Below, piece by piece: positions 15,717-41,878 of a stretch of DNA of 45,710 bases (positions within the stretch are counted from its first letter, which is position 1; each line of letters begins with the position of its first letter). A program made the translations under genes and the position numbers. A model generated the notes under the pieces. The model saw only the letters and a list, made by a program, of their open reading frames with translations, was not told where the DNA came from and searched no databases. Source of the DNA: a virus; the IMG/VR virus record IMGVR_UViG_3300044716_001511, positions 1 through 45,710 of that record; one strand, given 5' to 3'.

Positions 15717-16222
15717 CCCTTAGACCTCTGCACTTTGGTGTCGCCGCAATAACGGCCTGTCAGCGCGTAACTCTTAGCCGGCAACATCGACATCTTGTGC
15801 CAGACAATCTGCCCAATCCGCATCCCATGCCACAGGGCAACCGGATGCAGAGACCGGGCATTTTGTAGCTCCAGCGTCAGCCTGCCTTCGTAGCCCGGAT
15901 CCACGTACCCAGCCATCAGGTGCTCAATACCCTCCCTGGCACGGGAGGACTTAAGCGCCAGCTGCCCGGCTATGCAATCCGGCACCTTGAAGAACTCCAC
16001 CGTTTCCGCCAACACGAACTGGTGCGGCTGTAGCAGGAAGGGCTGCTCTGGAGCAGTGCCGCGAAGCGACACCGACTCCATCTCACTGGTGCCCTCCACC
16101 TCAATCAGCAGATTCTCGCCGAGTCTCACATCAAGACTGGCGGGATTCACGAGGGCCTCATCAAAAGGCGAGACAAGACCCCGTTTGCACAGGGTCCAGA
16201 TCTCCAGATCCGGGAGAATCAA
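15713..16222 (-). CDS. dcd: dCTP deaminase (or dCTP deaminase/dUTPase family)
   Basis: 169 residues, typical length for the trimeric family. Motifs: Asn-Pro-Ala-Ser-Leu-Asp-Val-Arg-Leu-Gly (~26-35), Lys-Ser-Ser-Arg-Ala-Arg (91-96), Tyr-Val-Asp-Pro-Gly (106-110) and Thr-Leu-Glu118-Leu, where Glu118 fits the catalytic glutamate. It makes dUTP (or dUMP) from dCTP, feeding thymidylate synthesis during replication. Coupled by 4-base overlaps on both sides. I cannot tell mono- from bifunctional by eye. Confidence 0.9.
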   Translation of the reverse strand: MILPDLEIWTLCKRGLVSPFDEALVNPASLDVRLGENLLIEVEGTSEMESVSLRGTAPEQPFLLQPHQFVLAETVEFFKVPDCIAGQLALKSSRAREGIEHLMAGYVDPGYEGRLTLELQNARSLHPVALWHGMRIGQIVWHKMSMLPAKSYALTGRYCGDTKVQRSKG

Positions 16223-16647
16223 GCGGTGATCTCCACAGGGGAAGGCGTGCCCTGGGACAGCTGGACATGCTTCCAGGTCTTACCCCACTTGATGCAGTTG
16301 ATCGTGGTGACATGCACCCCAAACTCCGCAGCGATCTTGGCAACGGACTGGGTACGCGCCGCCAAAGCCCGCTTGATCTCCAGCACCTTTGCCTCCGTCA
16401 GCACAGCCACCCCACGCTTTCCCTTGCGGCTGGACTTACGAGTCTTAACTTGAGACTTCGCAGTACGGACTTTTGCCGTACCTTTTAGCTCACCAGCTGG
16501 AGCGGCGGCGGTTTGCTTGGTGCTGCTGGCCTCCAGGTCAACGTGCTGAGCGTTGTGCAGGATGGTGGCGATCTCCTGCTGGTGCTCGGTGATGGTCTTG
16601 AGGCTGTCGGCGATGATCCGGGCTTGTGTGTCAGAGAGGATGAGCAT
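16219..16647 (-). CDS. Helix-turn-helix protein with homing-endonuclease-type DNA-binding end
   Basis: 142 residues. An N-terminal helix (~1-35), a Lys/Thr/Ser-rich linker (~45-80, very basic) and a C-terminal module (~82-128): Leu-Thr-Glu-Ala-Lys-Val, Lys-Ile-Ala-Ala-Glu-Phe-Gly-Val-His and Lys-Thr-Trp-Lys-His-Val. That end aligns with the C-terminus of the HNH protein two genes away, but there is no nuclease domain. It is likely a sequence-specific DNA binder, perhaps a regulator made from a homing-nuclease remnant. ATGA overlap with dCTP deaminase downstream. Confidence 0.7.
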   Translation of the reverse strand: MLILSDTQARIIADSLKTITEHQQEIATILHNAQHVDLEASSTKQTAAAPAGELKGTAKVRTAKSQVKTRKSSRKGKRGVAVLTEAKVLEIKRALAARTQSVAKIAAEFGVHVTTINCIKWGKTWKHVQLSQGTPSPVEITA

Positions 16648-16676
16648 GTTCTTAGGAGTGAACGGTTGTTAATGTA

Positions 16677-17003
16677 CTACGCGAAGAAGCGGGGATCCTG
16701 CTTCTTGAGCAGATTGATGCGGGAAAGCGGCAGCTTGAGCACTTCGCACATTGCCATCTCGGCCAGCTTGCTGGAGCAAATACTGTCGCTGGTGGCAAAG
16801 ACGTAGATCAGGTGCCGGTAGAGCTGGGTCAGAGTCCGAGCTTTGACCCAGTGGGTGTCGCCTGGAATGGGCTCGGTGCCGTAGTACCAGTCGTCGTAAT
16901 CAGTCGCATTGCGAATCTCACGAGACTCAGCGCTACCGATAAGGCGACTGGAGTGGTTGCCAGTTGTCGATTCGCTCGGAGAGCATTTTTCGTAGGCCGG
17001 CAT
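16677..17003 (-). CDS. Small protein, unknown
   Basis: 108 residues from ATG at 17003, overlapping the upstream gene by 71 bases, which is unusual here; the true start may be lower, but no clear ATG/GTG was found. Contains Tyr-Asp-Asp-Trp-Tyr-Tyr-Gly and a basic C-terminus (Leu-Leu-Lys-Lys-Gln-Asp-Pro-Arg-Phe-Phe). Function unknown. Confidence 0.5.
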   Translation of the reverse strand: MPAYEKCSPSESTTGNHSSRLIGSAESREIRNATDYDDWYYGTEPIPGDTHWVKARTLTQLYRHLIYVFATSDSICSSKLAEMAMCEVLKLPLSRINLLKKQDPRFFA

Positions 17004-17172
17004 CGGTAGCAGGAATCACGTCTTCATCAGAAAGGTAGAAGGAGCCTCGGCACACGGCAGGCACCCAGTGGGGCGAGACTGCCACAAGCTCCATCTCCTC
17101 CACCAAGGCCTCGACGGTGAGGCAGTTGTTGACGCCAAAGGACAGGTCAATAACTTCAAGAATCTGCCTCAC
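16933..17172 (-). CDS. Small protein, unknown
   Basis: 79 residues from a GTG at 17172 that overlaps the upstream stop (GTGA); a longer frame from 17202 is less likely. Contains Phe-Gly-Val-Asn-Asn-Cys and Val-Ser-Pro-His-Trp. No membrane segment. Unknown function; part of the early small-gene cluster. Confidence 0.6.
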   Translation of the reverse strand: MRQILEVIDLSFGVNNCLTVEALVEEMELVAVSPHWVPAVCRGSFYLSDEDVIPATDAGLRKMLSERIDNWQPLQSPYR

Positions 17173-17408
17173 TGGAGCACCTCTGTAGCAGCAGTACGGC
17201 ACTCAAGCTGTTCGAGCCACACGTCCCAGCTCATCTTGAGGAACTGGGCAAGGTCGTCCATTTGAGCAAGTTGTGCGAGGTGGTAGCCGGGATCCTGCCC
17301 AGCAGCCTCGGTTTCGACAATCGCCTGTTGCAGCAGATGCTGGCTCCAAGTGACGGCGAAGTACCACCTGGACAGGTTTTCGTTTGGAACGCTGGTGTGG
17401 GTAGCCAT
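17169..17408 (-). CDS. Small helical protein, unknown
   Basis: 79 residues from ATG at 17408, helix-rich (Trp-Ser-Gln-His-Leu-Leu-Gln-Gln-Ala). The first gene after a 213-base gap, so it may begin a transcript. Upstream on the minus strand TTGACG is followed 17 bases later by ACACTA, a poor -10. Function unknown. Confidence 0.6.
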   Translation of the reverse strand: MATHTSVPNENLSRWYFAVTWSQHLLQQAIVETEAAGQDPGYHLAQLAQMDDLAQFLKMSWDVWLEQLECRTAATEVLQ

Positions 17409-17621
17409 GGGCGTGTGTAACAGAAACAGAGCGAGAGCTGTCTGCCCTCGCCCTGTAGTGTTGCACAGAAACAGCCCCCGTCAACCCTGCCCTGTTGTAA
17501 TCCGTTACACGGCCCTAGCCGCTAAGCTTCGGGTCCAACGATTTCATCGCTGGGCATTCCGCAGTGTGGAGGCTGCGGTGAGGCGTGCAGGCGCGAGAGC
17601 CGACGCCACCTCCACACCCCA
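17409..17621. other. Noncoding gap in minus-strand block
   Basis: 213 bases without a convincing gene. It holds two copies of CAGAAACAG (near 17413 and 17466), which read CTGTTTCTG on the coding strand, and TTGACG on the minus strand before the 79-residue gene. A promoter/operator region for the distal minus-strand genes is likely. A 76-codon frame across it looks like a shadow. Confidence 0.4.
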
Positions 17622-17711
17622 TTACGGCAGCAGCTTCGACGCCAGCCAGAGCGCCAGGCAACACGCCACGACGTAGACGACGAGAAGCTCGAACAGTAGA
17701 GGCACTGTCAT
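17622..17711 (-). CDS. 29-residue single-span membrane peptide
   Basis: The ATG at 17711 overlaps the upstream stop (ATGA). Almost all of the peptide is hydrophobic (Leu-Leu-Val-Val-Tyr-Val-Val-Ala-Cys-Cys-Leu-Ala), then Trp-Leu-Ala-Ser-Lys. Such coupled micro-membrane proteins are easily missed. Role unknown; envelope interference or superinfection exclusion are guesses. Confidence 0.5.
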   Translation of the reverse strand: MTVPLLFELLVVYVVACCLALWLASKLLP

Positions 17712-17944
17712 TGGCCCTCCAGCTCGGCGGCAATGGCGAGGACACGAAGGCGCATCAGTTGTCGGGCTTGCACTTCGACATCCATTCCGACCATATATTC
17801 GTGCGGCACCGCCTGATCCGCAGCAGCGCGGAGGGCGGCTGGGAGCGCACCTTGTAGCAGCGTTTTGGCTATGTGGTCACCGTGTAAGGGGTACTTGCCG
17901 AAGGCATCCAACACCGCTTGCGCGGCGGGGGAGAGGTCAGTCAT
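17708..17944 (-). CDS. Small Ala-rich protein, picocyanobacterial phage family
   Basis: 78 residues from ATG at 17944, which shares one base with the upstream stop (TGATG). Starts Met-Thr-Asp-Leu-Ser-Pro-Ala-Ala-Gln-Ala-Val-Leu and contains Ala-Ala-Leu-Arg-Ala-Ala-Ala-Asp-Gln, a pattern I recall from Synechococcus/Cyanobium hypothetical proteins. Helical, soluble. Function unknown. Confidence 0.7.
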   Translation of the reverse strand: MTDLSPAAQAVLDAFGKYPLHGDHIAKTLLQGALPAALRAAADQAVPHEYMVGMDVEVQARQLMRLRVLAIAAELEGQ

Positions 17945-18228
17945 CACTCCGCCTCCTGCTGCGGCACCGGCTCGATGGCGGGGTGGCCCCATTTGGCAAG
18001 GACGGCGCGGGCGAAGCGGCGGCACTCTTGGAAGTCAGCCTCAGGGCCTTCCTGATCCCACAGGTCGTACAGCTCCTCATCCGTTGGCCCCTGCGGCTCG
18101 GGCTGGGCCAGGGCGGCGCGGGCGCGGACAAGCAAATCGTGGTGCGCCTCATCAACAGCGTATGTGTTGAACGCGGCATGAAGCTCAGCGCAAAGCGCTC
18201 GCCAGTCGGTGGGGGAGAGGTCAGCCAT
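17944..18228 (-). CDS. Small protein, picocyanobacterial phage family
   Basis: 94 residues from ATG at 18228 (a TTG one codon earlier is possible). Contains Arg-Ala-Arg-Ala-Ala-Leu-Ala-Gln-Pro-Glu-Pro-Gln-Gly-Pro-Thr-Asp-Glu-Glu, a linker I recall from many picocyanobacterial hypothetical proteins. The N-terminus (Asp-Leu-Ser-Pro) resembles that of the next gene. Overlaps the upstream gene by 8 bases. Function unknown. Confidence 0.7.
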   Translation of the reverse strand: MADLSPTDWRALCAELHAAFNTYAVDEAHHDLLVRARAALAQPEPQGPTDEELYDLWDQEGPEADFQECRRFARAVLAKWGHPAIEPVPQQEAE

Positions 18229-18565
18229 CAAGTTGCTCCAGGGCGCGGCGGATTAGGTAGACATCAATGTCGTCATCTTCCAGTGCTTTCAACGCCTGCT
18301 CCTTCAAGCTCGGCAGATTGGGACGCATCGCCTCTTTTAATGATTCACCTACTGGAGTAATCCGTAGATACGGTTCATTCAGAGCATTATGATCCAGCCA
18401 CTTTGCATCTTCTGCAAGTTGTTGGTCAGCGCCCCATTGGGCGGCACGTGTGGCGATGTGCTGTTCGTACGCCCAGTGTTTATCGTTGTGTGGCACGCCT
18501 GAAAGGTTGGCGTCGTGCCCCCACTGCTGCACCAGCTCCGGCGGTGGGGTGATGGGGTGGATCAT
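18221..18565 (-). CDS. Small protein, picocyanobacterial phage family
   Basis: 114 residues; ATGA overlap with the upstream membrane-protein gene. Starts with His-Pro-Ile-Thr-Pro-Pro-Pro-Glu-Leu-Val-Gln-Gln-Trp and has Ala-Ala-Gln-Trp-Gly-Ala-Asp-Gln-Gln-Leu, then Ser-Leu-Lys-Glu-Gln-Ala-Leu-Lys-Ala-Leu. This pattern recurs in Synechococcus-type hypothetical proteins as I recall them. No catalytic motif. Probably an early host-interaction factor by location only. Confidence 0.7.
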   Translation of the reverse strand: MIHPITPPPELVQQWGHDANLSGVPHNDKHWAYEQHIATRAAQWGADQQLAEDAKWLDHNALNEPYLRITPVGESLKEAMRPNLPSLKEQALKALEDDDIDVYLIRRALEQLDG

Positions 18566-18714
18566 TTAATACACTCCCACCAGATAATTCCCTTGACTAC
18601 CGCGCCACCAGCGGCGTGACATTCAGACGCAAACTGCACGGTGCAAAAAAGTGAAGTCACAGCAACAATGAAGCCAATCAAGAGGAGTGTTGCATTTAAT
18701 GGTTGCTCATTCAT
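18562..18714 (-). CDS. 50-residue membrane protein
   Basis: The ATG at 18714 lies 8 bases inside the upstream gene and the stop overlaps the next ATG (ATGA). Residues ~8-27 form one hydrophobic span, followed by Phe-Ala-Ser-Glu-Cys-His-Ala-Ala-Gly-Gly and Ile-Ile-Trp-Trp-Glu-Cys-Ile. The two cysteines would lie on one side of the membrane. Not recognised functionally. Likely real because of the double coupling. Confidence 0.65.
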   Translation of the reverse strand: MNEQPLNATLLLIGFIVAVTSLFCTVQFASECHAAGGAVVKGIIWWECIK

Positions 18715-18889
18715 TGAGCAGTTCTCCGTCAACCATGGCGTCGCACCACTCCTTGAACGGTGCTTCGATCTGGGCCATGGCCTTGTTGTCGATGGTCTCG
18801 GGTTTGAGGATCATGCCGAGCGCGAGACCAAGAGCATTGCCGAGGCGATCCTCAAGGCTGTTCAGTGGCACGAACTTGTAGTCAGTCAT
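18707..18889 (-). CDS. Small protein, unknown
   Basis: 60 residues from ATG at 18889, 8 bases inside the upstream gene; the longer frame from 18928 is less likely. Contains Leu-Gly-Asn-Ala-Leu-Gly-Leu-Ala-Leu-Gly-Met and Ala-Pro-Phe-Lys-Glu-Trp-Cys. Amphipathic, soluble. Function unknown. Confidence 0.6.
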   Translation of the reverse strand: MTDYKFVPLNSLEDRLGNALGLALGMILKPETIDNKAMAQIEAPFKEWCDAMVDGELLNE

Positions 18890-19064
18890 CTTCGTTGGGC
18901 AAGAGTTCAAGAAGTGAGTCAATGGCAAGACCTGTCGTGTTTTCTGAGCCTGGTGTGTAATACTGCGCCTCTACCAGCGCTATTCGCAAACGCTCAATGC
19001 AGGGCCACGGGTCGCGCAGCTCGGTGGAGAAGTCTTGGAATGGTGCGGGGTGAAAGTCGGTCAT
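18882..19064 (-). CDS. Small protein, unknown
   Basis: 60 residues; ATGA overlap with the upstream gene. Starts Met-Thr-Asp-Phe, like several neighbours that start Met-Thr-Asp, and ends acidic (Pro-Asn-Glu-Asp-Asp). Function unknown. Confidence 0.6.
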   Translation of the reverse strand: MTDFHPAPFQDFSTELRDPWPCIERLRIALVEAQYYTPGSENTTGLAIDSLLELLPNEDD

Positions 19065-19486
19065 CGCTCGACCTCCTGCTCAAGAGCAAAGACAAGCGCA
19101 GGCGGAAAGTACACATCGGGGTTGCCGGTCATCCACGCCGCCACTTCGCGAATCGCGGCGCGTGCTTCGGGTTCCCAGTTGATGGGCTCGTCGTCTCGGC
19201 CGATGGCACGGGCCACCCGGTCAACCAGCGAACTCCTAATTTGGCTTGGATTAGGAGTTGGCTTGGAGTCCTCGTTGTCAGGCAGCAGGGCGGTAAAGAA
19301 TTTCAGGCGGTCTGGTGCAAGCGAGGCGCAGGTGTTGGCCAATCGCAGGTGGTCTATGCGCCACTGCTTGGAGTTGGCCTCCAGCGCCTCAATGCGGGCG
19401 CAAAGTTCAAGGAGGCAGGCCCGGGTATCGGAAGCAAATGCTCCGGCATCAGCCCATTGTTCGGGTGTTGCTCTGTAGTCAGTCAT
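19061..19486 (-). CDS. Small helical protein, picocyanobacterial family
   Basis: 141 residues; ATGA overlap with the AP2 gene. Starts Met-Thr-Asp-Tyr-Arg-Ala-Thr-Pro-Glu-Gln-Trp-Ala, then a helix with Cys-Leu-Leu-Glu-Leu-Cys-Ala-Arg-Ile-Glu-Ala-Leu-Glu (short coiled coil) and a variable linker, then Ser-Ser-Leu-Val-Asp-Arg-Val-Ala. I recall this start and helix from many Synechococcus/Cyanobium hypothetical proteins. Function unknown. Confidence 0.7.
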   Translation of the reverse strand: MTDYRATPEQWADAGAFASDTRACLLELCARIEALEANSKQWRIDHLRLANTCASLAPDRLKFFTALLPDNEDSKPTPNPSQIRSSLVDRVARAIGRDDEPINWEPEARAAIREVAAWMTGNPDVYFPPALVFALEQEVER

Positions 19487-19749
19487 TCGGTGATTTCGTT
19501 GATGACAGCGTGTTCGCCAATGATGCGCAGAGCGGCCTCGTTGTAGGCCAAGGCCGCCTCGCGCTCGGTGGCATGGTTACCGAGGTAGTAGCGCCCACCC
19601 CGGTAACCCAGTGCTGCCCGCCACGGCAGCTTGGGATTGTTGCTACGCGACACACCTCGATAAACGCTGGCGCGGTTGGCAGGCCGCGGCCGATTGGCCA
19701 TCGACAGGTAGTAAGCCTCCTTGGTGCCGCTGCAGTTGAAGTACCCCAC
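19483..19749 (-). CDS. AP2-domain DNA-binding protein
   Basis: 88 residues from a GTG at 19749; an ATG at 19701 is an alternative. Residues ~28-85 match an AP2/ERF-type domain: Tyr-Arg-Gly-Val-Ser-Arg, Trp-Arg-Ala-Ala-Leu, Tyr-Leu-Gly-Asn, then Glu-Ala-Ala-Leu-Ala-Tyr-Asn-Glu-Ala-Ala and Asn-Glu-Ile. In phages this domain usually sits on HNH homing endonucleases (one is at 25536); here it stands alone. It probably binds DNA as a regulator or is a nuclease remnant. Confidence 0.85.
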   Translation of the reverse strand: MGYFNCSGTKEAYYLSMANRPRPANRASVYRGVSRSNNPKLPWRAALGYRGGRYYLGNHATEREAALAYNEAALRIIGEHAVINEITE

Positions 19750-19770
19750 GAACTTATGTCGAGTGTAACA

Positions 19771-20073
19771 CTAGTCTACAGGGACACCAAGGATTTCGGG
19801 CTGGAGGTCAGTCATGACGGACACGTCCGCCCCATGCCGCAACGCCTGCCCCACTAGGTAGTGGAACGAATCCACGGCATCCTCGTCACACTCGATCTGG
19901 TACTCCTCGACCTCGCAGGCCCTCCCGCGCTTGAACCAGCAGATCCGCACCACAGCCAGGAGATGGTCTGGCGTGGTGGTGACGTTGTAGTCCAGCATCG
20001 GCCTACGGGGTTTTTTCGGACGAGGCTTGGACACGGGGGGATCCCTCCAAAACAGCCATGCGGCAACCCGCAT
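19771..20073 (-). CDS. Small protein, unknown
   Basis: 100 residues from ATG at 20073 with AGGG just upstream; a GTG at 20106 overlapping the preceding stop would give 111. The start has a hydrophobic patch (Val-Ala-Ala-Trp-Leu-Phe-Trp) then Pro/Lys-rich residues, then a folded part with Val-Arg-Ile-Cys-Trp-Phe-Lys-Arg and Glu-Glu-Tyr-Gln-Ile-Glu-Cys-Asp. Function unknown. Confidence 0.5.
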   Translation of the reverse strand: MRVAAWLFWRDPPVSKPRPKKPRRPMLDYNVTTTPDHLLAVVRICWFKRGRACEVEEYQIECDEDAVDSFHYLVGQALRHGADVSVMTDLQPEILGVPVD

Positions 20074-20330: not shown

Positions 20331-22772
20331 CTAATCCCACATCCGTGCAGCTTCCTGCATCAGCTGATCCAGCTCATCCGGGCTGCGCTCCTCAGTTGAG
20401 GTGGAATCCCCTCGCGTGAATATCGGGGTGTCCTGCTGTCCCAAACTCTGAGAGTCGTTGCGCTGCAACGCATCTGCCGGATTTACCTGTCCCAGTTTGT
20501 CCTGTTTTGTCCCAACCTGTCCTTTTGGTGTCCCAGAGGCGGGTTTGGGACAACTTGGGACAAAATCGGACAAAACGGGACAACCCATTTCCTCAGATCC
20601 AGCTCCAGCACTGGATTCTTCCTCTTTGGGACAGCTAACACCTCCTCCCCCCCTGTGCGCGAGGACTGCGTAATACCTCTTACTGGAACGATCCCCCTCA
20701 ACAGCCACCAGTTTCCGATCGACCAACCGTTGGAGCGACTTGGCAATGGCGCTGACGCTTCCACCAAGTAGTGGATCCGCATTCAGCTCCGCCTTGGTCA
20801 TCGGCACTGCCTTTGTCCGCAGGCGCTGGAGCACCCGGTCAATGATCGAAGCCGGACCCGCCGTATCCATGTCATCCGCCGGCGGCAGATCCTGCAGCGA
20901 GAAGGTCAGGTCTTCCTTCTGGCGCAGGATCAGTTGCTTGCCCTCGTTCCCCTCCCGGCTCTTCCCGATGGTGATAAGCCGCGCAGAGGCCCCTACACGC
21001 TCCAGCTCGGCCTTCTCCGGGCGTCGGATGCCCCAAGACTCATCCACGGCATCCTGAAGCGCTGTGGTGCCCCTGAAGTCGCCAGTCTTGGAAGCGTGGT
21101 GGATGAAGACGATGGTGGTTGCCGGGAAGCTCTCGCCGTTCTCGGCGCTGTACCAGTAGATCGGCTCGGCGTACTCGGCCTTGTTCTGGTCAAAGGCACA
21201 GCCCCGCATACAGGCCGTCACTGAATCCCACACCACGAGCTTGGGGCGATGCTCCTCGATCTGCTGGATAAACCACGGGTACCAAAGCATCGAAACTTTG
21301 TTCCGGACAATTACGGGATCGTCCGCCGTGAAATCCAAATCCTCAAACTGCTTCCGAATCCGGCGGCTGTTCTGGTCTCCGTTCAACCAAAGCACCGTGC
21401 CCTGTTCAACTGGAACCTCCTGTCCCCTAACCGAAAAAGGCGTCCCCCTGGCGATGTGCTGAGCCAAGGTCAAGACAGCCATCGTTTTGCCACAGCCACC
21501 ACGACCGTGCATCAACACAGTCCCCGGCTTAGGCAACAGCTCTGGAATCAGGTACTCAATCGGCGTTTCTTCAGTAGCAAAAATCTCTTGCAAAGAGCCT
21601 CCATGCGAACCACGGCGAAACTCCTGATCAGCAATTAACAGCCGCACCACAGCCGCTGCATCGCGGTAACCAGCCTCCTGCGCAATTTCATGCAGCTTGT
21701 GCTGCACTTCGGACGGGTTAGGCAGTTTCATGGCCGCCTCAGCCCGCTTGACGATTTCTTCGTGCGAAAGACCGACGGTACGGAACCGCTGCACCCGGTC
21801 CTGCTCAGCCTCGGTAACGATCTTGCGCAGATCCTCCGACAACCACACACGACCCGGCATCTGCTGGTCCGCCATCCAAAACAGCGTCCCAAGGCTCACC
21901 GGCCCCTTCCGAAAGCTCTTCCACACCTCCTCACAGGGGTTGGCACCAGCCCACTCATCGGCGTACTCAGGATCCTCAGCCGACCACGCCGCCCACAACG
22001 TCAACCCCAAATCAGTGGGCAGCTCGCTGTGGATCGCCATGCCCACCTTGACCCAATGATCCCGGCTACCAGCTCCCTGCCCTGGAATCACCCGCAAGGC
22101 GGACTGCACAATCTCAGCCACCTCAGCCGGGTCTCGATCCGAGAAATCCAGCGCCTTGCGGTTCTTAATGAAGCCACCATCGGCCACCTCTTTCCCGCAG
22201 CGCTCGCGCATCTCCGCCAGCAACCACGCTGGAGCCTCTGGAATGACCTCCAGATCGCCCTCAAAGCCGTACTGCCCCTCTGGCGCCTTCCCATCGTTAG
22301 AGCCCGGATAAGCCCCGTACAGAAGCCCCTGGCGCCCCCACAGCACCTCATACCCAGCCCCTGTATCCGACAGTCCAAAACCCTGTACCTCAGCCCACAG
22401 CGCCTCAGGCACCCGGAACAGGTACTTCGCCGCATTGGCCTTGGTGGACGTAACGACTGGAGCACCTTCCAGCGTCTCCCCCCACTTTTTCTTGAGACGG
22501 CTGAGATTCCGATCCACATCGAGAATCACGAGTCCCGCACTGCGAGGCCCGGTAAATACACCGACCGCCCGAAACACATCCGGCTTCCGCTCGATCTGGA
22601 GCACCACGTCAGCCGGCCCCATCACCTGATGGTGACTCCGCTCCAACGGCGCCTTGCCCTTACTTTCCTTACCGGACTGGAGCTTGCTGCCAGCCCTGTA
22701 AATCGGCGCATACGCCATGCCCACGGGCAACTGGCGCACAAAATTCAATAGCTGTTGCGTCTCACTGGACAC
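20331..22772 (-). CDS. Primase-helicase (Prim-Pol plus RepA-like AAA ATPase)
   Basis: 813 residues from a GTG at 22772 with GGAG 9 bases upstream. Residues ~1-190 resemble a bifunctional primase-polymerase (AEP) domain with Leu-Val-Ile-Leu-Asp85-Val-Asp87. Residues ~215-300 look like a PriCT-type helical domain. Residues ~400-620 are a RecA/RepA-like helicase: Walker A Gly-Arg-Gly-Gly-Cys-Gly-Lys429-Thr and Walker B Leu-Val-Val-Trp-Asp516. Residues ~640-705 look like a winged helix. The tail (~710-813) is low-complexity and its DNA carries a phased repeat array (20488-20582). It should prime and unwind DNA for the family A polymerase, and may bind the origin. Confidence 0.88.
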   Translation of the reverse strand: MSSETQQLLNFVRQLPVGMAYAPIYRAGSKLQSGKESKGKAPLERSHHQVMGPADVVLQIERKPDVFRAVGVFTGPRSAGLVILDVDRNLSRLKKKWGETLEGAPVVTSTKANAAKYLFRVPEALWAEVQGFGLSDTGAGYEVLWGRQGLLYGAYPGSNDGKAPEGQYGFEGDLEVIPEAPAWLLAEMRERCGKEVADGGFIKNRKALDFSDRDPAEVAEIVQSALRVIPGQGAGSRDHWVKVGMAIHSELPTDLGLTLWAAWSAEDPEYADEWAGANPCEEVWKSFRKGPVSLGTLFWMADQQMPGRVWLSEDLRKIVTEAEQDRVQRFRTVGLSHEEIVKRAEAAMKLPNPSEVQHKLHEIAQEAGYRDAAAVVRLLIADQEFRRGSHGGSLQEIFATEETPIEYLIPELLPKPGTVLMHGRGGCGKTMAVLTLAQHIARGTPFSVRGQEVPVEQGTVLWLNGDQNSRRIRKQFEDLDFTADDPVIVRNKVSMLWYPWFIQQIEEHRPKLVVWDSVTACMRGCAFDQNKAEYAEPIYWYSAENGESFPATTIVFIHHASKTGDFRGTTALQDAVDESWGIRRPEKAELERVGASARLITIGKSREGNEGKQLILRQKEDLTFSLQDLPPADDMDTAGPASIIDRVLQRLRTKAVPMTKAELNADPLLGGSVSAIAKSLQRLVDRKLVAVEGDRSSKRYYAVLAHRGGGGVSCPKEEESSAGAGSEEMGCPVLSDFVPSCPKPASGTPKGQVGTKQDKLGQVNPADALQRNDSQSLGQQDTPIFTRGDSTSTEERSPDELDQLMQEAARMWD
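20488..20582. repeat. Helically phased TGTCC / GGACA array (candidate origin or operator)
   Basis: On the plus strand TGTCC units start at 20488, 20498, 20508, 20518 and 20529, then inverted GGACA units lie in hexamers starting at 20547, 20557, 20567 and 20577. The step is 10 bp (one is 11). The halves are mirror images about ~20540. A further GGGACA is at 20628. The 10-bp step does not match codons, so the encoded peptide is not periodic and the DNA itself appears to be selected. Location in the replication gene recalls lambda ori inside gene O. Confidence 0.7.
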
Positions 22773-22805
22773 AGTGGTAGACTCCTACACGAGAATGTTC
22801 ACTCC

Positions 22806-22838
22806 GCCCCACCGCCTTCTGGCAGTGGGGCGTTTTTG
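22806..22838 (+). terminator. Hairpin with T run in divergent replication region
   Basis: GCCCCAC (22806-22812) and GTGGGGC (22825-22831), then GTTTTTG: a good rho-independent terminator on the plus strand. It lies between divergent genes, so it would stop antisense transcripts coming across the primase gene, or act as a 5' leader hairpin of the minus-strand primase message. Confidence 0.65.
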
Positions 22839-22863
22839 TAGGGTAGCCCCCTGCGTCAACCCG

Positions 22864-22877
22864 TGCTACTGTAGTAG
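22864..22877 (+). promoter_or_regulatory. Putative extended -10 promoter, CTACTGTAG motif
   Basis: TG-C-TACTGT (22864-22872) is an extended -10 element; the overlapping CTACTGTAGTAG 12-mer is identical to the one at 11655. It would start the ssDNA-binding-protein message ~40 bases before the ATG. No -35 is apparent. Confidence 0.45.
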
Positions 22878-22917
22878 ACGTTGCCACTCAGGCGACCATC
22901 AAACACCAGTAACCGCA

Positions 22918-23499
22918 ATGGGTTTCCTTTCCAAGCAAGCATCAGCCAACGTCTCCAGCTCCGGCAGCGGCGGCGGCTACCTGCAAGTCTCCAAACTCCC
23001 CGATGGCGGCAGCGTCCGCTTCGCCCTGCTGTCCGACACCCCCCTCGAGTTCTATGAGTGCTGGGGCACCTGCGACGGCGCCACCAAGCCCTTCCGCTTC
23101 GACCACGAACCCACCGAAGGTGACCTCAAGGTGGAAATGGGCGACTTCGAGCCCCGCGAAGGCCGTGGCGGCCCTGGCACTGCCGACGTGAAATTCGCCA
23201 TCGCCGTCCCCGTCTACAACTTCGACACCGGTAACGTCCAAGTCCTCTCCCTAACCCAAAAGTCCATCCTCAAAGAGCTGGACTCGATCAGCCAAATGGA
23301 GGATTACGACGACTTGCTTGCCTGGGACTTCAGCCTCAGCAAAAAAGGCTCCGGTCTCCTGACTGAGTACACGCTGCGTCCCGTCCCTCGCAAGAAAGGC
23401 GCCCAAGAGCACATCGACGCTGCCTGGATCGAGGCCAAATCAGCCGGTTTCGACTTGGAGCGCCTGCTGACTGGCGGCAACCCATTCAAGGCTGCCTGA
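22918..23499 (+). CDS. Probable single-stranded DNA-binding protein
   Basis: 193 residues from ATG at 22918; a longer frame upstream crosses the terminator and promoter and is rejected. Starts Met-Gly-Phe-Leu-Ser-Lys, then a Ser/Gly linker, Leu-Pro-Asp-Gly-Gly-Ser-Val-Arg-Phe-Ala-Leu-Leu (~29-40), Pro-Arg-Lys-Lys-Gly (~161-165), and a terminal Leu-Leu-Thr-Gly-Gly-Asn-Pro-Phe. I recall this family from cyanophages beside replication genes. The ssDNA-binding role is inferred from context (divergent from primase-helicase, before nuclease genes) and not from a defining motif. Confidence 0.5.
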   Translation: MGFLSKQASANVSSSGSGGGYLQVSKLPDGGSVRFALLSDTPLEFYECWGTCDGATKPFRFDHEPTEGDLKVEMGDFEPREGRGGPGTADVKFAIAVPVYNFDTGNVQVLSLTQKSILKELDSISQMEDYDDLLAWDFSLSKKGSGLLTEYTLRPVPRKKGAQEHIDAAWIEAKSAGFDLERLLTGGNPFKAA

Positions 23500-38817: not shown

Positions 38818-39002
38818 GCGCCGAAATCCGAAAGGACACCTGGCTTATGCTCCAATTCGGAGTCGCCAAAGAGCTAGGCAAAACCCTTTCGGAGATCAGC
38901 ACCACCATGACCGCCGAAGAACTGATCGGCTGGAGCGCCTATTTCAGCATCCTTAACGAGGACCAACAAAAGGAGATGGAAAAAGCCAAACGCCGCCGCT
39001 AA
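38476..39002 (+). CDS. Tail assembly chaperone, -1 frameshift product (GT-like)
   Basis: The slippery heptamer C-CCA-AAA (38805-38811) is in the correct phase: zero-frame codons CCA AAA re-pair as CCC AAA after a -1 slip, leaving ATC as the next codon. The -1 frame stays open for 63 codons to TAA at 39000-39002, giving 112 + 63 = 175 residues. The added part is helical (Glu-Leu-Gly-Lys-Thr-Leu, Glu-Glu-Leu-Ile-Gly-Trp-Ser-Ala-Tyr) and ends Lys-Arg-Arg-Arg, a typical T-domain. In lambda, gpGT recruits tube protein to the tape measure. The terminator at 38992 overlaps its last codons. Confidence 0.85.
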
Positions 39003-39018
39003 CCCCGGCGGCTTTTTT
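38992..39018 (+). terminator. Rho-independent terminator before tape measure
   Basis: GCCGCCG - CTAACCC - CGGCGGC followed by TTTTTT: a perfect 7-bp GC stem overlapping the stop codon of the frameshift product. The tape measure gene would need its own promoter or read-through; TAAACT at 39025-39030 is a possible -10. Confidence 0.9.
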
Positions 39019-39052
39019 GTCGCGTAAACTGAAGCATCGAAGCTACTGGCAC

Positions 39053-41878
39053 GTGGCCAACTACAACGCCAATATCAATCTTACGGTAACTGGACAGAAC
39101 CGTCTTGATTATATCCTTGCATCAGTAGAAAAACTAGACTCTATCGTATCCAGATTAAAACCTATAAACTTACTGGCTCCTGGAGCAGGCGCTGGTGGTG
39201 ATGCCATCCGAACTGCTAAAAAGCAACTAGACGATTTTGCCCGTGCTGTAATAAATTTCGAACCTCAAGGAATCCAAAAAAGAGCCAAAGAATTATCTAA
39301 TACCTTAGCTGGTTCTGCAGCACAAGCGGATGCGCTATCTGTTGCACTTGCTAACGTAGGTCTAAAAAGCGGTACATTTAAAGATCAAGCTGCCGAAGTA
39401 AAAAATTATGCACTGGCGTTAGATACAGCAACAAAAAATGCAGACCGCTTGAGCGCCATCAGTCGTAGCGTAACAAGAGGCGCTCGTGTAGAAAACATAG
39501 CTTCGCGTTTCGGTACAACATCAGAAGCTGTAGAACAACGGATACTCAATATTCGCAATATACGCTATAAAAAACAAAGAGAGGCTGCTGCCGATGAGTT
39601 TATGCAGCAGAAGCGAGCAGAAGATTTTGAACTACGCTTGAACGCTATTTTTGAAAAAAGGCAAAAAGCTAAGCAAGATCGAACAACCGCAGAAAACGTA
39701 GCTCTGGGCGCCGGTTTTCCTTTGTTGTTCGGGGCTGGCCCTGGAGCAGTTGTAGGTGGCGCTTTAGGTGGACTTATTCCAGGCAACCCCATGTTGTCTG
39801 TTGTAACGAGTGCTGTTGGCGCTCAACTAGATGCTGCTATAGCAAAAATTAGTGAGCTTGGTATTGGCTTACGTCAATTAGATTTTGACAGACTCGAGCA
39901 AAGTGGTCTGCGTGTCTCACAGGTACTTAAAGAACAAGTACAGCTTCTAGTTCGGTTAGGACAAACTTCGCAAGCTTACCAAGTCCTTCAACAGGAAGCC
40001 GCACGCATCACTGGCACGCTCCCTGGAACAATTACAGACATCAGTAATGCTACAGGTATTTTAAATTCTGCATGGTCTGAATTTACAAACGTAGCTAGCA
40101 CAACTTTAGGTATTGTCGGCGCTCCGTTTGCTGCAGCATTAGGCGGCTTAGTTAAACTAGTTTCAGAATTACTAAAAGGCGTAAATAGCGTTGTCAGTCT
40201 GTTTGCAGAAGGACTAAAAACAGTAGGAGAATGGTCCATCCGACTGGTCGCCGGAGAAGAAGGACTAAAGCGTGTTAAAGACTTAATCGATTCCATCAAC
40301 CGCAGTACAGGACAGGGTAATGCTGAGTTTATGCAAAGCAATCTAGTACCCCTTAACGAAGAAATTGTATTAAACAGGCAAATTTTAGATATTCAAAAAC
40401 AGCGCACTGCTGAAACAACTTTGAGCGGTAAAATACAAAACAGCAATATAACTTATACAGTACAAACACTGAAAAATGAACAAAAATACACAGAAAGTGT
40501 TGTACAATTAAATGAAAAGAAAAACTCTATCAGTAAAGAGCTGTACCAGCAAGGCTTGCGGCAATTACAAGTAATTCGTGCTCAATCTGATGAGTACGCA
40601 AAACAAACACGCGATCTAGAAGTCCAACAGGCCCGTAGACAGGAAACGGAACGTCTTTTGCGAGAACAAGAAGAACAAGCACGTACGCGCCAGCAAGCAA
40701 TCGAAGAAGCCGTAAGAGAGGAACAAAGATTTAGACAATCTATGTTGTCTATGCGTAAAGAAGAAAACGATTTAGTTGCATCAGGTTTAGACGTATACGC
40801 AGACTACTTAAAAGCTACTAAAGGTGTAGAAGCGTCACTAGAAAGTCAGTTACTATACTTTAATGATTATGTACAGGCACGTTTAACTGCCCTTAGTTAC
40901 GAACGTACTGCTGCACAAGAAGCAGCTAAAACAGTAAAAGAAGAAGAAAAAATACTACAGTTATACGAGCTTAAAAAGCAGCAACTTGAAAATCAATTAG
41001 CTACACGCCAAGCATTGCTGCGTACTCAACAGATGCAGGCTATTTACGAAGCGGCGGATGCACAAGGTATTTTGTCTGCGGATAAACAGCGCGGTCTAGG
41101 AAAAGCCTTTACACGCTTCCAACCTGACGCACCAGCTGCTTTTGGATCAGCTTTAAATCTGGACTTGGCTAATGATGGTGTACAACAACTAGAAACGTAC
41201 CAAAAAGAACTGGACAAACTTACAGGTAAAACAAACGTAGTAAAGCAAAGCGCCGAAGGTATCAGTGCCGCGTTCTCAGGTGCTTTTCAAGGGCTGATTA
41301 CTGGCGCCCAAACAGCGCAAGAAACATTAGCTGGATTCTTTAAAGGTGTAGCAGATGCTTTTATAAATATGGCAACAGAAATTATTACAAAAATGCTTAC
41401 CATGTATGTGTTTAAAAGTTTGTTGGGTTTGTTTGGCGGTGGTGGGGGTAGCCTATTCAGCGGTCAAGGCCCAGTAGCGATGCCTGGTGCTGGCGTCGGT
41501 GGTGGGGCATCAATGTTTATGCCAGGAGCACCAAGTTTTCGTGCCAACGGCGGCCCCGTCACCGGCGGCTCACCCTACGTTGTCGGCGAACGTGGCCCTG
41601 AATTGTTTGTCCCTGGCACCGGCGGTTCTGTGGTTTCAAACAATGACCTCCGTTCCGCCATGGGCTCTGCTCCAGGTATGGGCGGCAGTCCTGTGCTTAA
41701 TATGAGTTTTGAAACCACCAGTATTGGCGGTGTGGAATACGTCAGCCGCGATCAACTGGAGCTGGCCATGGCTGCCACCCGCCGCCAAGCCGCCCGCGAT
41801 GGCGCCCAACGCGGCATGACGATGACCCTGGACCGCCTCCAGCAATCGCCTAACACCCGCCGGAGAGTTGGTTTCTAA
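39053..41878 (+). CDS. Tape measure protein
   Basis: 941 residues from a GTG at 39053; an in-frame TTG at 39017 lies inside the terminator and is rejected. Hydrophobic Gly-rich segments near residues 215-250 and 770-810, and a long Gln/Glu/Arg coiled coil (~residues 500-620). The end has Gly-Gly-Pro-Val-Thr-Gly-Gly-Ser-Pro-Tyr-Val-Val-Gly-Glu-Arg-Gly-Pro-Glu-Leu, the usual tape-measure C-terminal motif. It fixes tail length and helps DNA entry. Bases 39060-41530 are clearly A/T-rich with A/T-ending codons, while the last ~340 bases return to GC-rich, so most of the gene has a foreign composition. Confidence 0.92.
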   Translation: MANYNANINLTVTGQNRLDYILASVEKLDSIVSRLKPINLLAPGAGAGGDAIRTAKKQLDDFARAVINFEPQGIQKRAKELSNTLAGSAAQADALSVALANVGLKSGTFKDQAAEVKNYALALDTATKNADRLSAISRSVTRGARVENIASRFGTTSEAVEQRILNIRNIRYKKQREAAADEFMQQKRAEDFELRLNAIFEKRQKAKQDRTTAENVALGAGFPLLFGAGPGAVVGGALGGLIPGNPMLSVVTSAVGAQLDAAIAKISELGIGLRQLDFDRLEQSGLRVSQVLKEQVQLLVRLGQTSQAYQVLQQEAARITGTLPGTITDISNATGILNSAWSEFTNVASTTLGIVGAPFAAALGGLVKLVSELLKGVNSVVSLFAEGLKTVGEWSIRLVAGEEGLKRVKDLIDSINRSTGQGNAEFMQSNLVPLNEEIVLNRQILDIQKQRTAETTLSGKIQNSNITYTVQTLKNEQKYTESVVQLNEKKNSISKELYQQGLRQLQVIRAQSDEYAKQTRDLEVQQARRQETERLLREQEEQARTRQQAIEEAVREEQRFRQSMLSMRKEENDLVASGLDVYADYLKATKGVEASLESQLLYFNDYVQARLTALSYERTAAQEAAKTVKEEEKILQLYELKKQQLENQLATRQALLRTQQMQAIYEAADAQGILSADKQRGLGKAFTRFQPDAPAAFGSALNLDLANDGVQQLETYQKELDKLTGKTNVVKQSAEGISAAFSGAFQGLITGAQTAQETLAGFFKGVADAFINMATEIITKMLTMYVFKSLLGLFGGGGGSLFSGQGPVAMPGAGVGGGASMFMPGAPSFRANGGPVTGGSPYVVGERGPELFVPGTGGSVVSNNDLRSAMGSAPGMGGSPVLNMSFETTSIGGVEYVSRDQLELAMAATRRQAARDGAQRGMTMTLDRLQQSPNTRRRVGF

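Follow-up and report, generated by a model that had tools for sequence, protein, structure and literature searches.

The P4 alpha protein unites a primase, a helicase and a C-terminal winged-helix origin-binding domain in one chain; its iterons lie outside the gene, together with a second cis region, and its primase and helicase belong to families other than those considered herein. The lambda O protein is neither a helicase nor a primase and recruits the host DnaB through P. The origin served by O, ori-lambda, is located inside gene O (PMC6022878). SaPI Rep and Cch2 bind short iterons just downstream of their genes through a C-terminal domain (PMC7581432), and pRN1 ORF904 holds a prim-pol, a helicase and a winged helix in a single protein, with an essential element at the 3' end of its gene (PMC4234260). 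For the PLE satellites, the DNA-binding domain of RepA and the iterons covary and are exchanged as a module; their origins are cut by a phage nuclease, and rapid change of origin specificity is selected (PMC8263062). Finally, oriV of the IncU plasmid RA3 has been mapped to the 3' end of repB, which encodes its initiator (PMC9455977).

Here, we analysed a 45.7-kb tailed-phage record (the whole of which is hereafter called the window), which has matches to terminase, portal, capsid and tape-measure proteins. Its primase-helicase gene (20331..22772, minus strand; 813 aa), recognized from Pfam matches and an alignment of relatives, combines in one protein a Prim-Pol domain (residues 24-183; Pfam E 2.1e-5), a PriCT_2 domain (residues 223-301; E 2.9e-16) and an AAA_25 domain (residues 399-565; E 4.1e-22), and all three matches exceed the gathering scores. 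The C-terminal part comprises, in order, a predicted winged-helix domain (wHTH; about residues 641-705, codons 20658..20852, minus strand), a linker encoded by the repeat array described below, and a short conserved tail. AlphaFold2 folded residues 634-712 as H-H-H-E-E, that is, three helices and a two-strand wing (core pLDDT about 70-82), and the Foldseek neighbours of this model, of modest significance (best E 6e-3), are winged helices of the MarR, Fur and ArsR types. A PDB sequence search with the wHTH profile gave weak matches (best E 0.013), and the full-length model of the protein was poor (pLDDT 50). We assign the winged-helix fold to the C-terminal domain with moderate confidence; its predicted recognition helix, placed by the structure model and by covariation, spans residues 673-685 (codons 20718..20756, minus strand). 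A divergent neighbour on the plus strand (22717..23499), the longest ORF of which overlaps the primase gene at its start, weakly matches a single-strand DNA binding protein (phrog_1607, E 2.3e-4). Elsewhere in the window, G+C is 0.51-0.65 and drops to 0.40-0.45 at 39001-41000, in the tape-measure gene.

An initial annotation had drawn attention to a phased, inverted array of TGTCC and GGACA inside this gene, and we recovered the same positions. Specifically, five TGTCC start at 20488, 20498, 20508, 20518 and 20529, with steps of 10, 10, 10 and 11 bp (arm 1, 20488..20533, plus strand), and four GGACA start at 20548, 20558, 20568 and 20578, every step being 10 bp (arm 2, 20543..20582, minus strand, with the five variable bases of each site on the left). 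Its intragenic location is borne out as well, the array encoding the linker that follows the wHTH of the minus-strand gene. The mirror centre, previously put at 20540, moves to 20535 when the sites are paired (20488 with 20578, 20518 with 20548), the TGTCC at 20529 being left without a mirror partner. Further, the interval 20488-20582 holds the core of the array but not its full extent, as outer sites stand 51 bp from either arm, TGTCCCAAAC at 20437..20446 (plus strand) and a second with its GGACA at 20629 (20624..20633, minus strand), and the spacing of both is kept in relatives. One more TGTCC, at 20429 (20429..20438, plus strand), 8 bp from the outer site and present in some relatives only, is perhaps incidental. 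The array packs 9 sites into 95 bp, against a maximum of 4 in any 95 bp of 100 simulated sequences generated from the trinucleotide statistics of the window, and it is the strongest 6-mer cluster anywhere in the 45.7 kb. It shares with iteron origins the attribute of a cluster of short repeats that is unique in the genome and is located at a putative initiator gene.

Scans of IMG/VR retrieved relatives with about 61-98% identity to the window protein, from which 117 non-redundant genes were kept; a search of bacterial and archaeal genomes returned no relatives, so that no host or prophage is assigned. The array is found at the same gene position in all 117; the final 400 nt of each gene contain 4-14 sites (mean 8.3), compared with 0.36 per 400 nt elsewhere in it. 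Three clade-specific layouts occur, and mirror-symmetric spacings are kept within clades. The start-to-start spacings are 51,10,10,10, centre, 10,10,10,51 in the window's clade and 45,16,10,26,10,16,45 or 45,16,34,16,45 or 45,16,80,15,44 in clade 2, and the third layout is less symmetric (L037, L039, L040 and L050). Measured from centre to centre (a site being TGTCC+N5), the clade-2 distances of 40, 21, 10, 21, 10, 21 and 40 bp approach whole numbers of helical turns. In many relatives, a CCAGT-N9-GGATCTG element recurs in the spacers that separate outer from inner sites, in a single orientation and reading frame; in the window, it lies at about 20596-20617 (minus strand).

The peptide encoded by the array is far less conserved than the array. 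Mean pairwise identity declines from 0.84 over residues 1-300 and 0.73 over residues 401-640 to 0.30 over residues 729-782, and the sites use all three frames in 112 of the 117 genes; hence, the DNA is the selected object, as had been proposed, and the expectation that relatives would keep the phasing while the protein drifts is borne out. These observations also bear on the view that a disordered linker with a repeated peptide gave rise to the pattern as a side effect; this view would find some encouragement in the similar CP...GQ peptides that, by eye, the clade-2 outer modules encode in one frame. Steps of 10, 11 and 16 bp, however, shift the frame, and the sites lie on both strands, so that frame usage together with peptide drift contradicts a peptide origin, which we regard as extremely improbable. 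The arrangement lets a protein-coding linker hold a putative origin without fixing its peptide.

Because the layout is palindromic, a hairpin or cruciform could form in principle, and selection might act on such a large secondary structure, of the kind put forward for pRN1-type replicons. The layout does fold strongly (-101 kcal/mol in the window, z about -8 relative to mononucleotide shuffles), mirrored sites in clade 1 resemble each other more than non-mirrored ones (2.48 vs 3.13 mismatches of 5), and pRN1 requires a stem-loop just 3' of its replication gene (PMC4234260). Yet in 61 clade-2 genomes, complementarity of the variable spacer positions across the mirror is about what column composition predicts (0.40 vs 0.33 and 0.29 vs 0.33), and it is the sites alone that exceed expectation (0.74 and 0.86 vs 0.35 and 0.39). 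A conserved stem-loop with compensating changes is, on this spacer pairing, largely rejected. Moreover, the variable bases are common to same-strand copies too, strict mirror order is absent in some clades (L037, L050), and a hairpin would leave the covariation with the recognition helix, presented next, unexplained. We thus consider selection for such a structure very unlikely.

The sites are decamers of the form TGTCC-n1..n5, with a constant core followed by five variable bases that are alike inside one genome and unlike between genomes (CACTG, CACCT, CCCCT, AGCTG, TCTTT, CCCTA, GGTTT and others). Counted over n1-n4 in clade 2, sites from one genome differ at 1.04 positions on average and sites from different genomes at 2.42. 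The window's own clade shows less uniformity in its variable bases, and it is in clade 2 that the covariation is clear. The clade-2 site classes include TGTCCCACTG (L067) and TGTCCCACCT (L053). The former decamer occurs in 6 and 7 copies in two other records (47 and 41 kb), always inside the array, so that in those two records it does not act as a repressor site spread over the genome.

The variable half of the sites covaries with the predicted recognition helix. Over all 117 genes, mutual information places residue 677 first for n1, for n2 and for the sum, with unrelated columns close behind; as this measure is confounded by clade differences, testing was limited to clade 2 and to helix types, and residues above about 706, which correlate trivially because the array encodes them, were left out. 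The clade-2 test drew on 66 genes with a mean identity of 88% and on the 245 columns that vary outside the part encoded by the array, and it used partial correlations that control for divergence in the rest of the protein. Residue 677 was the top column of the 245 for overall site distance (partial r 0.67) and for n1, n2 and n3 (0.76 for n2, the next column reaching 0.35), residue 675 was top for n5 (0.71) and residue 674 for n4 (0.54), and residues 1-630 averaged about 0. When each of 21 helix types was counted once, over residues 641-705 only, the pairing of 677 with n2 (r 0.63, next 0.16, p 0.001) and that of 675 with n5 (r 0.56, p 0.001) were recovered, while n3 and n4 were best explained by residues 660, 672 and 700, outside the helix start. 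On a tree built from residues 1-630 of the primase, 677=R and n2=A changed jointly in 6 of 7 independent pairs, with 0 opposite (median p 0.03).

At the level of single residues, R at 677 goes with n2=A and K mostly with n2=C, and T674 occurs mostly with n4=C under either residue. Site type is predicted by helix type: TAIRKAL is found with CACCT, AGIRKAL with CACTG, AGIRKAT with A[A/G]CTG, TAIKKAT with CCCCT, xGIKKAL with CCC[T/C] and AAIGKAL with T-rich sites. Helix and array types in clade 2 are dispersed across the tree of residues 1-630. The three covarying residues, 674, 675 and 677, begin the recognition helix of the predicted wHTH. Judged from this covariation, the primase-helicase very probably binds its own coding sequence, which lends support to the earlier suggestion that the array is bound by the Prim-Pol/RepA-like protein itself.

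The recognition helix lies about 140 bp from the array and is shuffled jointly with it, so that linkage inflates some of the associations. The wHTH-array segment appears, from its distribution among sequences, to be swapped between phages as a cassette; such a cassette fits a functional module, and linkage contributes too. Alternatively, another phage or host protein might bind the array, the wHTH covarying through physical linkage alone. Adjacency and joint recombination agree with such a scenario, as does the covariation of wing residues 694, 698 and 704, which are not obvious contacts and which, being nearer the array, may covary partly through linkage. However, residues 674, 675 and 677 rank above residues nearer the array, the match between residue and base is position-specific and combinatorial, and the residues concerned are placed where the recognition helix of the predicted wHTH would meet DNA. 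A different binder is, in our assessment, very unlikely.

We favour, as probable, the view that the primase-helicase reads the array in its own gene as a cis-acting site in double-stranded DNA, most likely the phage replication origin. A primase-helicase that binds a unique, two-armed cluster through a C-terminal wHTH is best read as a putative self-loading initiator on its origin. Specifically, we infer that the wHTH would contact each decamer, TGTCC-n1..n5, the start of the recognition helix reading the variable half (677 for n2 and n1, 675 for n5 and 674 for n4). The opposed arms suggest two oppositely facing helicase assemblies, which would be seated as two opposed rings through their wHTH domains; the AAA_25 motors would then open the strands at the array, and the Prim-Pol domains would prime synthesis in situ both ways.

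Binding by the encoded protein could also serve another role, that of an operator governing transcription through the 3' end of the gene, of a copy-control or handcuffing site, or of a partition site. Covariation speaks for recognition and not for function, the array separates the body of the primase from the genes downstream, and regulation is a frequent second task of iteron initiators. On the other hand, the array is >2 kb downstream of the gene start, its likeliest reader has primase and helicase domains, and comparable sites in P4-type systems are origins. Those of SaPI (PMC7581432) and lambda (PMC6022878) are origins also. We therefore consider a role other than replication unlikely. The initial annotation had named a cumulative GC skew minimum as a check on the putative origin. 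GC skew has no minimum at the array and no origin signature; on the primase-coding strand, it is positive upstream of the array and near zero downstream, a pattern opposite to that of a simple bidirectional origin and one that gene orientation confounds. At 16001-20000 of the window, over the run of small minus-strand ORFs downstream of the primase, the skew passes from negative to slightly positive. An AT-rich unwinding element is not marked in the average of the 117 loci, where AT reaches only ~0.52 at one array flank.

TGTCC arrays extend beyond this primase family. A scan of IMG/VR for (TGTCC N5)x4, in which all counts are of arrays among the matches listed and hence lower bounds, gave at least 30 contigs in the window's primase family and at least 100 elsewhere. 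In at least 52 of the latter, a number that includes some near-duplicate contigs, the spacers go beyond simple tandem copying; a complete scan for the reversed core, CCTGT, gave 38 stretches, of which 1 was non-tandem. Outside the window's primase family, TGTCC with 10-bp steps and spacers that differ from one another is thus common in phages (loci L408-L525), and several such arrays are located in or beside replication initiators. In a raw tally of 81 ORFs near the listed arrays, primases, primase-helicases and AAA_25 proteins were the commonest annotations, with terminases, portals and integrases also present. At L504, the array lies at the very 3' end of another Prim-Pol/PriCT_2/AAA_25 gene; at L419 and its relatives, it lies about 55 bp past the gene for a 677-aa primase-helicase; and at L468 (3230-4642), it lies inside the gene for an O-like/DnaD-like initiator, directly after the winged helix encoded there, an independent case of the same layout. 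TGTCC is not universal, as no such array is present in ten regions from named phages whose primases or initiators are distant (including S-CBS4, Pam2, Rhizobium 16-3, Roseobacter CRP-823 and CRP-831, Microcystis Mae-JY30, phiEf11 and BcepNazgul). Searched against ORFs in the vicinity of other TGTCC arrays, the wHTH profile (A2) matched weakly at best (E about 0.004 for the top hit), which leaves a common winged-helix family behind the core unsupported. A literature search, covering few subscription journals, found no description of TGTCC iteron arrays. We tentatively propose, at somewhat less than even confidence, that TGTCC plus five lineage-specific bases per 10 bp is a widespread, undescribed iteron grammar used by phage initiators of unrelated architecture. 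If so, a constant core and a readable variable half would let origin specificity diversify fast, and the window's primase family would supply a natural helix-to-base table.

Comparative sequence evidence gives good support to the array and to its being recognized by the encoded protein; origin function is likely, and the TGTCC core may be shared far more widely. Across 117 genes, and with 21 helix types in one clade, the specificity of the putative initiator has changed repeatedly together with its target, so that a winged-helix recognition code can be fitted and tested. The array family suggests that selection favours fast turnover of origin specificity, as in the PLE satellites (PMC8263062), and TGTCC arrays could allow origins to be located from sequence alone in many uncultured phages.

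As in RA3, which is a plasmid system, the putative origin lies at the 3' end of a putative initiator gene. The pRN1 ORF904-type proteins likewise join prim-pol, helicase and winged helix, with an element at the 3' end of the gene, but they have an SF3 helicase and a stem-loop, whereas here pairing outside the sites is not conserved. PLE RepA, from satellites of Vibrio phages, offers the parallel of a covarying domain and iterons under modular exchange; its iterons, however, are about 30 bp and intergenic, and its RepA_N initiator is without primase or helicase. The comparison with lambda made in the initial annotation holds for location, in that the repeats of the putative origin lie inside the coding sequence of the protein that would bind them, as in gene O. 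It does not extend to design, as here a single chain combines primase, helicase and DNA-binding domain and the decamer sites form two opposed arms; the closer match in design is found in SaPI Rep and P4 alpha, helicases that load themselves and bind DNA through a C-terminal domain. The predicted fold gives the window protein, with moderate confidence, the C-terminal DNA-binding winged helix of such helicases. SaPI Rep and SCCmec Cch2 similarly read short iterons at their own gene end through a C-terminal domain, but their iterons lie downstream of the gene and not within it, their helicases are of other families (DUF927, D5-like), and Cch2 uses AAGTG. P4 alpha has the same three-part composition as the window protein, with extragenic iterons where those found here are intragenic. 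By analogy with lambda O, SaPI Rep and P4 alpha, the array is probably a replication origin. Initiators that bind iterons in or at their own gene are known; the present family stands out by an unusually clear co-evolving specificity code.
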